23,273 nt of DNA from a virus. The stretch covers positions 1-23,273 of IMG/VR virus record IMGVR_UViG_3300009159_000334. One strand, 5' to 3'. The notes below the pieces were generated by a model. That model was not told the DNA's origin and did no database searches. It was given only the letters and a program-made list of their open reading frames with translations. Within the stretch, counting starts at the first letter, position 1. Every line of letters starts with the position of its first letter. A program made the translations under genes and the position numbers. Below, piece by piece: positions 21,934 to 23,186 of this stretch.

Positions 21934-22163
21934 AATCCTATATTGGCCTCCACCATACGCTTTGTAGCGTCTTTAAGGCTCTTAATATTTTTATGTATCT
22001 CAACGGTATCCATGTCTTTATTTAATGCTGTAATACGCAGCGTATGAGTTTTAGAGGGCATATCTTTATACCACTGCATATCAACTGGCCTTTGACGTAC
22101 AATGCATTCCCAAACCACGTCACCATTATGATTAATTTCTTCTATGATCCAAGCATCAGCCAT
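21930..22163 (-). CDS. Small protein, unrecognised
   Basis: The start is placed at the ATG at 22163, which overlaps the previous stop (TAATG), giving 77 residues. A start at 22214 would overlap the hydrolase by 52 bases. The sequence starts MADAWIIEEINHNGDVVWEC, then has VRQRPVDMQWYKDMPSKTHT and a helical end (KSLKDATKRMVEANIGL). It looks like a compact alpha/beta protein, with no motif I can name. Confidence 0.6.
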   Translation of the reverse strand: MADAWIIEEINHNGDVVWECIVRQRPVDMQWYKDMPSKTHTLRITALNKDMDTVEIHKNIKSLKDATKRMVEANIGL

Positions 22164-22543
22164 TAATAAAACACCATCCGTCCTATGTGCGTTTTCTTTT
22201 TGTGACCAAACCATTCTTTTTTTGGCGGTATTGAGTCATCATGGAAATATAGCGAATTTGCCACCAAGTTTGGGTGTTTATTATAAATAATCGTATCAAT
22301 AACCAGTAATTTAGTTTCCAAATACGCTTTTTCATCAACTGGATTGTGGGCTTCATCCTGCACAGCGAACTGATTATTAGCATAAACGACAGAGCATACA
22401 GAATAACCCCAGCGACCAGAATGCAACCTATTACGAATAACATTAATAACTCCTACTTTTTCCTCTAGCGAACGAGTGTTGACCTCATGATACACTGCTG
22501 TTGCATAGCACGCAACATCTAATTCCAAATTATTAATATCCAT
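22163..22543 (-). CDS. SleB-like cell-wall hydrolase
   Basis: The 126-residue protein matches the Hydrolase_2 (SleB) domain: ATAVYHEVNTRSLEEKVGVI with Glu20 in the catalytic position, VINVIRNRLHSGRWGYSVCS (Asn38, Arg39), VVYANNQF, and a late LYFHDDSIPP with His101. SleB-type enzymes are lytic transglycosylases that cut peptidoglycan glycan strands. There is no signal peptide, so it would need a holin or act from inside. It is encoded in the leftward, probably early, cluster, far from the holin/DUF5675 lysis block. It is coupled on both sides by TAATG. Confidence 0.75.
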   Translation of the reverse strand: MDINNLELDVACYATAVYHEVNTRSLEEKVGVINVIRNRLHSGRWGYSVCSVVYANNQFAVQDEAHNPVDEKAYLETKLLVIDTIIYNKHPNLVANSLYFHDDSIPPKKEWFGHKKKTHIGRMVFY

Positions 22544-22782
22544 TATCTTTTCTCACTTATAATTCTCTGGACGTATTGCTGATCGTATCCAGATAAAATT
22601 AAACATATGTCTTTAACCACGTTGTCATGTTCGTTAAGCCACCTAATAGCTGATTCACGTTCTGTGCCATATCCTTCTAATGCATCCCTCATGGCCAGTA
22701 ACAATATAGCATGAAACAATCTAGCGTGTGGTGTTGTTGCTAATTCAGCCCTTATGGACTCCTTAAACTCAAACTTAAACAT
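22543..22782 (-). CDS. Small helical protein of phage type, unrecognised
   Basis: The 79-residue protein is all helical: LFHAILLLAMRDALEGYGTE, then RESAIRWLNEHDNVVKDICL, then SGYDQQYVQRII. The combination of an A-x-x-D helix, a WL-x-x-H/S-D segment and an x-IC-x-x-L-x-G/x-D-x-x-x-V end recalls small phage proteins with possible DNA-binding roles. The match is loose. It starts after AGAGG and ends in a TAATG overlap with the SleB-like gene. It is the first leftward gene after pqqA; no convincing promoter was found in front of it. Confidence 0.6.
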   Translation of the reverse strand: MFKFEFKESIRAELATTPHARLFHAILLLAMRDALEGYGTERESAIRWLNEHDNVVKDICLILSGYDQQYVQRIISEKR

Positions 22783-22826
22783 AGACCTCTTTCATGGTTT
22801 TCTTTATATTCCAGATAGCTTGCTGG

Positions 22827-22835
22827 GTGTATAAT
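22827..22835 (+). promoter_or_regulatory. -10 promoter element of pqqA
   Basis: GTGTATAAT holds a perfect -10 hexamer (22830-22835) 40 bases before the pqqA start, and is identical to the nine bases at 17281-17289. No good -35 is visible. The leader includes a small hairpin, TGGC-ATAA-GCCA (22844-22855). AAGGA (22864-22868) stands seven bases before the ATG, within a CCTTAAGG palindrome. Confidence 0.5.
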
Positions 22836-22875
22836 CCAACTAATGGCATAAGCCAGAAACCTTAAGGATAATACC

Positions 22876-22947
22876 ATGTGGACAACTCCAGCAGCTACTG
22901 AAATGCGTTTTGGCTTTGAAGTAACTATGTACGTAATGAACAAGTAA
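22876..22947 (+). CDS. pqqA: PqqA, precursor peptide for the cofactor PQQ
   Basis: A 23-residue peptide starts MWTTPAATEMRFGFEVTMYV and ends MNK. It has the same length and alignment as Klebsiella PqqA, with Trp2, Pro5, Gly13 and the core E15-V-T-M-Y19. PqqE, with PqqD, joins Glu15 and Tyr19 by a carbon-carbon bond. The pair is then excised and converted to PQQ by the other Pqq enzymes. One peptide is consumed per PQQ. The gene has its own -10 element, an AAGGA site seven bases upstream and a terminator directly downstream, and lies on the + strand amid leftward phage genes. No pqqB-E is visible. It is most likely an auxiliary metabolic gene that supports the host's PQQ-dependent dehydrogenases, such as methanol dehydrogenase, during infection. 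Confidence 0.9.
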   Translation: MWTTPAATEMRFGFEVTMYVMNK

Positions 22948-22954
22948 CTCCAAT

Positions 22955-22983
22955 TGGGGATGTCCTAAAATGGGACATCCTCA
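22955..22983 (+). terminator. Intrinsic terminator after pqqA
   Basis: TGGGGATGTCC-type left arm (22955-22965) pairs with GGACATCCTCA (22973-22983) through 11 pairs, one of them G-U, around a seven-base loop. ATTGTTTT follows on the + strand. It begins eight bases after the pqqA stop and has no T-tract in the other direction. The leftward gene's stop codon (22965-22967) lies at its loop edge. Confidence 0.8.
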
Positions 22984-23186
22984 TTGTTTTCTACAGACTT
23001 TGCAGCCTCTTTCATTTGCACAGATCCGCTAATAAATTTACCACTAGCACCTTCACGAATCCAGCCACTAATTCTAAATTCAATTCCATCTACATTAGCG
23101 TTGCCTGTGTAGTCTGGACGTTTAGGATTGTCACCTTTATCGTTCTTAAACAATACAAAAGTATTGGTATTATCATAATCCGCCAT
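22965..23186 (-). CDS. Small protein with SSB-like acidic tail
   Basis: The 73-residue protein starts MADYDNTNTFVLFKNDKGDN, continues with a beta-rich part (VDGIEFRISGWIREGASGKF) and ends ENNEDVPF. It resembles small DUF736-type proteins of phages that look like an OB fold. The acidic C-terminus ending in PF copies the tip that bacterial single-stranded DNA binding protein uses to recruit partners. It may bind single-stranded DNA near the replication genes, which probably lie to the right. AAGGAG precedes the ATG at 23186. Function is inferred. Confidence 0.65.
   Translation of the reverse strand: MADYDNTNTFVLFKNDKGDNPKRPDYTGNANVDGIEFRISGWIREGASGKFISGSVQMKEAAKSVENNEDVPF

Follow-up and report, generated by a model that had tools for sequence, protein, structure and literature searches.

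The pqqA gene and its surroundings

The stretch of DNA analyzed here (23,273 nucleotides in full; hereafter, the window) is a 23.3-kb tailed-phage fragment, in which head, tail, endolysin, exonuclease, and single-stranded DNA-binding protein (SSB) genes were recognized by PHROG matches. Near its end lies a 23-codon gene, pqqA, encoding a peptide with the features of PqqA, the precursor of pyrroloquinoline quinone (PQQ). As listed in Table 1, the gene forms part of a compact unit that extends from an operator-like inverted repeat to a terminator-like hairpin and spans positions 22792 to 22983, approximately. The original prediction had placed the gene among phage genes, and it is indeed flanked by a cell-wall hydrolase gene and an SSB-like gene, both on the opposite strand. 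The convergent SSB-like gene has its final codons (DVPF) in the 3' arm of the hairpin, so one sequence has two roles.

Table 1. Positions of pqqA, its associated elements, and the neighboring genes in the window
Feature	Position	Strand	Evidence
Cell-wall hydrolase/endolysin	22163..22543	-	PHROG 938, E = 2.1e-11; bait for the pqqA-blind search for relatives
79-aa protein, divergent from pqqA	22543..22782	-	No PHROG match
Operator-like inverted repeat TCATGGTTTTCTTTAT, phage counterpart of the host pqq operator	22792..22807	+	19.9 bits, random-seed motif
-10 box TATAAT	22830..22835	+	Sequence; 38 bases after operator start; no sigma-70 -35 hexamer
Ribosome-binding site AAGGA	22864..22868	+	Sequence; 7 bases before ATG
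pqqA, 23 codons and stop, product MWTTPAATEMRFGFEVTMYVMNK	22876..22947	+	Translation, family profiles, conservation
Terminator-like hairpin	22955..22983	+	13 pairs, T-rich tail
Single-stranded DNA-binding protein (SSB-like), convergent with pqqA	22965..23186	-	PHROG 18154, E = 3.9e-14

In PQQ synthesis, a glutamate and a tyrosine of PqqA are the residues joined by PqqE, and PqqD assists PqqE in this cross-linking. PqqA is the only protein component of the pathway that is consumed one-for-one, whereas PqqB, PqqC, and PqqD/PqqE are reusable. In the window peptide, the corresponding residues are Glu15 and Tyr19, which lie within an E-V-T-M-Y core. The predicted size and key residues were confirmed by translation and by two family profiles, and the proposed alignment with PqqA families placed the peptide above both curated cut-offs: it matches Pfam PF08042 (PqqA) with an E-value of 3e-10 and 40.3 bits (cut-off 21.1) and the NCBIfam equivalog TIGR02107 with an E-value of 5.6e-10 and 38.8 bits (cut-off 20). 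It also shares the short length (about 20 to 30 residues) and the Glu-x3-Tyr arrangement of the family. The TIGR02107 model found no match in 14 control genomes, so the match of the window peptide is above chance level. Judged by its sequence, the frame is confirmed as a true pqqA, the gene of the PQQ precursor peptide.

Occurrence in phages

A peptide identical to that of the window is encoded by an unannotated frame of Methylophilaceae phage P19250A, and close forms of PqqA occur in Venkman, MEP301, MEP401, MEP402, four Melnitz isolates, and the spring phage ctXG6705. At the DNA level, the sole match between the window and P19250A covers positions 22862-22947, i.e., pqqA and its ribosome-binding site, with 91% identity. 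A search of phage genomes for short E-x3-Y frames, as originally suggested, was carried out with degenerate DNA patterns, and it located pqqA in nine cultured phages of Methylophilales (P19250A, Venkman, MEP301, MEP401, MEP402, and the four Melnitz isolates; this count was taken without MEP431-434, and its denominator is incomplete) and in more than 120 viral contigs (three IMG/VR pattern scans with at least 120 matches each). In the first IMG/VR scan, 118 of the 119 frames read among the matches listed were PqqA-like, and conserved pqqA genes were found at more than 160 viral loci. These are bona fide viral genomes carrying a host-derived metabolic gene, as seen from the cultured phages and from the structural and replication genes in the window.

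The expectation that such a short gene escapes most gene finders was borne out: pqqA is unannotated in P19250A, Venkman, MEP301, MEP401, and MEP402. In the deposited records of ctXG6705 (L005, 2067-2195, minus strand) and Melnitz-1 (L004, 3961-4056, minus strand), an antisense hypothetical protein is called over pqqA. One record named Acinetobacter phage MD-2021a (CAKLQF020000010.1) has a complete pqqA-pqqB-C-D-radical-SAM cluster next to polyphosphate kinase and was left out as a probable mis-sorted piece of host chromosome; a second record, CAKLQH020000055.1, bears the same name.

The neighbors and the orientation of phage pqqA vary widely among the loci, and some copies adjoin SSB or Erf recombination genes. 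In the clusters around loci L123 and L114, pqqA directly follows the gene of the major head (capsid) protein; such copies would be expressed late and at a high level, unlike the divergent unit of the window. This varied placement suggests that the timing of expression differs among phages. The recurring feature is the pqqA unit itself and not its location.

Conservation and selection

The first search patterns demanded E-V-T-x-Y and thus could not test the conservation of Glu15 and Tyr19; they were replaced by an N-terminal pattern and by a search based on a neighboring gene. Among the matches listed for the N-terminal pattern, all 119 frames are 23 codons long and retain Glu15 and Tyr19, and only positions 4, 6, 12, 16, 18, 20, 21, and 23 vary, with mostly conservative substitutions. 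Nucleotide variation in phage pqqA is almost all synonymous and is concentrated in third codon positions. Across the free codons 14-23 of 108 distinct sequences, the pN/pS ratio is approximately 0.02, a rough value, with synonymous sites near saturation.

For a sample blind to pqqA, relatives of the neighboring cell-wall hydrolase with at least 1.2 kb of sequence on the relevant side were collected (n = 67). All 67 have pqqA at the same place on the opposite strand, and all 67 copies retain Glu15 and Tyr19, including two divergent ones that read MEITAY. The gene behaves as a core gene in the phage group of the window, and the anticipated conservation of both residues in related phages held in the pattern-based set (119/119, matches listed) as in the neighbor-based set (67/67).

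Likely hosts and the orphan state of the gene

When 84,980 bacterial and archaeal genomes were scanned for the core EMRFGFEVTMY, most of the matches fell in records titled Methylophilales. Among 130 motif matches in bacterial genomes, the commonest complete peptide (53 occurrences) is identical to the window peptide. The phage of the window therefore likely infects a Methylophilales bacterium. Given this identity to host PqqA, the window peptide is also very likely to be a substrate for PqqD-assisted cross-linking by PqqE.

Twenty-three phage records (six reference genomes and 17 long contigs) each contain exactly one pqqA. In a profile search of these records, no pqqB, pqqC, pqqD, or pqqE scored over the cut-off, and the radical-SAM and PqqD-like matches were weak and far below it. 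In the window record, too, no pqqE was found, in keeping with the originally noted lack of pqqB-E near pqqA. Conversely, the prediction had relied on pqq genes in the host, and these were found: pqqB, pqqC, pqqD, and pqqE are all present in the OM43 strain LSUCC0665, a Methylopumilus genome, and Methylotenera mobilis 13, and pqqE scored over the cut-off in nine of ten host genomes. The tenth is the uncultured OM43 assembly AG-390-L14, which is about 0.9 Mb and may be incomplete. The pqqBCDE genes needed in the same cell are therefore supplied by the likely hosts and are absent, at the cut-off, from the phages.

The host genomes carry 1 to 12 copies of pqqA each, and 3 to 12 copies have been reported in Methylophilales bacteria (PMC4109929). 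Several host genomes (L161, L226, L191, and G025 at C2:67903 and 69728) have two oppositely oriented pqqA copies about 1.7 to 5 kb apart. All three hosts checked have PQQ-dependent alcohol dehydrogenases. Of the 23 phage records, a single one has such a gene, which indicates that most of the phages rely on the dehydrogenase of the host. The exceptional record is L051, a 72,356-base contig (IMGVR_UViG_3300025120_009955), in which a full-length gene for a PQQ-dependent alcohol dehydrogenase lies approximately 6 kb from pqqA, similar to the Baikal viruses described below.

Operator and promoter region

Words enriched upstream of phage pqqA comprise a purine-rich ribosome-binding site at approximately -15, a TATAAT-type box near -56, and a further element near -88. 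The purine-rich words, e.g., GAAAGGAGA and TAAGGAGAA, are strongly enriched and are related to the AAGGA of the window. The phage and host sets were analyzed independently by random-seed motif discovery, which returned an inverted repeat in both cases, namely T[AC]ATGATTTTCn[TG]TA[TG] for the phages and T[CA]ATGA[AT][AT][TA]TC[AC]T[TG]AG (consensus TMATGAwwwTCMTKAG) for the hosts. The inverted repeat common to both is TMATGAwwwTCMTKAK. With the threshold set so that 2% of the background passes, the phage motif marks 78% of the host upstream regions; the host motif marks 68% of the upstream regions of phage pqqA; about a fifth of the phage copies have no recognizable operator. In most hosts, the -10 box starts 60 or 61 bases after the operator start (61 counts from 64 genes); in phages, the preferred spacing is 37 or 38 bases (28 counts from 72). 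In the aligned host regions, a half-site, TTCATGA, occurs about 23 bases after the operator start.

In whole-genome scans, the best operator matches precede host pqqA copies. In Methylotenera mobilis 13, a site with one mismatch lies before the pqqA copy beside pqqBCDE. A one-mismatch operator is also located just upstream of pqqB in LSUCC0665 (G018, 768141-768157) and in Methylopumilus (G019, C21:4473-4489), both of which are streamlined hosts. The operator so appears to mark the PQQ-synthesis regulon of the host (pqqA/pqqB), and the shared element would define this regulon in the hosts; no description of it was found in the literature searched. The regulator was sought through other operator matches, most of which, among those examined, fall inside reading frames and gave no lead.

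A sigma-70 scan of the window returned no promoter that uses the TATAAT box, a silence that fits an activator-type promoter rather than the lack of a promoter. With the -10 hexamer taken to start at -12, the center of the phage operator would fall near -41.5, a typical position for an activator site, and activation as opposed to repression by a candidate host regulator may be read from this position. The phage unit is apparently a stand-alone pqqA wired into the PQQ regulon of the host.

Downstream hairpin

Clustering of the phage pqqA loci by their flanking DNA yielded 55 unrelated surroundings. The hairpin behind pqqA in the window (-21.0 kcal/mol) is the most stable of the 55 representative downstream regions. 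In 55% of the 55 surroundings, the downstream hairpin is among the lowest 5% of the energies of random stretches from the same contig; these controls include coding DNA, so part of the excess is attributable to gene ends as such.

The unit may be comparable to phage morons, i.e., small independent transcription units that are best known from prophages. Promoter- and terminator-like elements are present in the window, where the unit runs against the direction of its neighbors, and across the phages the orientations are mixed and some copies follow the capsid gene. Unlike the typical moron, pqqA is found in phages of free-living plankton and carries a host-type operator.

Proposed role and alternative explanations

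We consider it probable that pqqA is an auxiliary metabolic gene of Methylophilales phages (infecting Methylopumilus, OM43, and Methylotenera) that supplies substrate under a host-type operator and sustains PQQ during infection. In the proposed mechanism, a candidate host regulator would act on the phage operator as it does on the operators of host pqqA, and phage replication would multiply the gene dose. The phage peptide would then be converted to PQQ by PqqD/PqqE, PqqB, and PqqC of the host, and the supply of PQQ to PQQ-dependent methanol and alcohol dehydrogenases would be kept up while the phage replicates. The original interpretation, in which the phage brings just the consumed substrate and uses host enzymes, is supported by every computational test named with it, from the family match and conservation to the pqq genes of the host. 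Because PQQ is used repeatedly as a cofactor, it is not obvious what would be gained within a single infection cycle. PMC11317620 cites work on Methylovorus, which has five pqqA copies, in which the availability of PqqA was reported to be rate-determining.

The operator, rather than the peptide, might be the active part: phage copies of the operator could titrate the host pqq regulator and so alter how strongly pqqBCDE and pqqA of the host are expressed, and the peptide would then be of secondary importance. The operator is common to host pqqA genes and pqqB, and phage replication would multiply its copies. On the other hand, a decoy of this kind needs no coding frame, ribosome-binding site, or terminator, and a recognizable operator is lacking in about a fifth of the phage copies. 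The peptide is under extreme purifying selection, which would not be expected if the operator acted purely as a decoy, and we regard this reading as quite improbable.

That both cross-linked residues are invariant bears on a second alternative, in which phage PqqA occupies PqqD/PqqE or is diverted, thereby lowering host PQQ or serving another use, e.g., lanthanide handling. A possible non-cofactor role of orphan PqqA in lanthanide uptake is raised in PMC11317620; however, mere binding would not require both Glu15 and Tyr19, and many phages encode a peptide that matches the host's own substrate in every residue. A decoy or inhibitory peptide is thus quite improbable.

There is very little chance that pqqA is a functionless passenger, stemming either from recent capture of a host copy or from host DNA wrongly sorted into viral collections. 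The peptide and operator are host-like, and the related records are mostly metagenomic contigs; this reading is nonetheless contradicted, because the gene is present in nine cultured phages, in 67/67 syntenic relatives, and in at least 55 unrelated surroundings, and selection acts against amino acid changes in it. A chance frame, with the antisense hypothetical protein annotated under the match in ctXG6705 and Melnitz being the real gene, is ruled out for practical purposes by the curated family scores, the third-position variation in the pqqA frame, and the ribosome-binding site at a fixed distance.

Supply of the consumed substrate is the simplest reading and the one we retain. On balance, we also favor the view that in phages of methylotrophic bacteria a near-universal, stand-alone pqqA under the host PQQ operator is driven by a host regulator in step with PQQ synthesis of the host, and that pqqA has been gained independently in phages of other PQQ-making hosts of alphaproteobacterial type.

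Comparison with known systems

Phage PqqA itself is already known from one population, the Lake Baikal T4-like VP_266, which also encodes methanol dehydrogenase (PMC7678222, 2020). Similar to the phages described here, VP_266 has a predicted Methylophilaceae host, and a boost of PQQ and methanol oxidation was proposed for it; in contrast, the unit reported here is near-universal, free of the dehydrogenase, distributed over several phage groups, and equipped with a host-type operator. What appears to be new here is the ubiquity, the shared operator, and the architecture of the unit, of which no report was found in the mainly openly accessible literature searched. The string pqq is absent from both papers on MEP301 and MEP401/402, and the Melnitz paper mentions PQQ solely as a medium ingredient.

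The closest relatives of the phage peptide are the PqqA peptides of Methylophilales (PF08042, TIGR02107), with which it shares the length, Glu15 and Tyr19, often every residue, and the operator element. The hosts likewise have orphan pqqA copies away from pqqBCDE. The phage copy differs in being single and without pqqBCDE, and its operator is usually nearer to the -10 box (37/38 versus 60/61 bases). Photosynthesis genes of cyanophages such as psbA supply a fast-turnover host component and keep energy metabolism running. The pqqA gene resembles psbA as a phage-supplied host component for energy metabolism, but its product is a 23-residue cofactor precursor that is stoichiometrically consumed and not an enzyme or reaction-center protein.

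Lakes and coastal seas harbor abundant Methylophilales, which oxidize methanol through PQQ enzymes. The presence of pqqA throughout their phages, mostly missed in annotation, suggests that cofactor supply during infection is under strong selection that has been overlooked, and it implies an influence of viruses on methanol oxidation. Phages, it appears, can borrow just the consumable part of a pathway together with its regulatory site. If the proposed role is true, viruses would control central energy metabolism via a ribosomally made, consumable cofactor precursor. Very short frames deserve inclusion in phage annotation.

Other PqqA types in viruses

Separate scans of viral contigs revealed other PqqA types, including MAWTAPKVAEVQVGMEINMYACAKQK and its relatives and a Methylobacterium-like PqqA, MKWSAPIVQEVCVGMEVTSYDSAEIDTFN, in a 266-kb viral contig. 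The tested examples exceed the family cut-off, and pqqE scored over the cut-off in none of the 19 records checked with these types. One pattern, GTNGGNATGGARGTNACNNNNTAY, was mostly off-target and was rejected (PqqA in only 2 of 29 matches). Orphan pqqA genes of alphaproteobacterial appearance were observed at L347, L349, L350, L352, L353, L355, L358, L361, and L375; these types suggest independent gains of pqqA in phages, and their putative alphaproteobacterial hosts are assigned through resemblance only. The copy at L353 has likely tRNA genes before it and a terminator-like hairpin after it, as judged by eye. Further viral types (RLGFEVTMYFKN-, MKWETPSFEDLRFGFEVTMYINASN) were found at L032, L011, L020, L025, L031, and L035, and portal- and terminase-like frames lie near the copy at L032.
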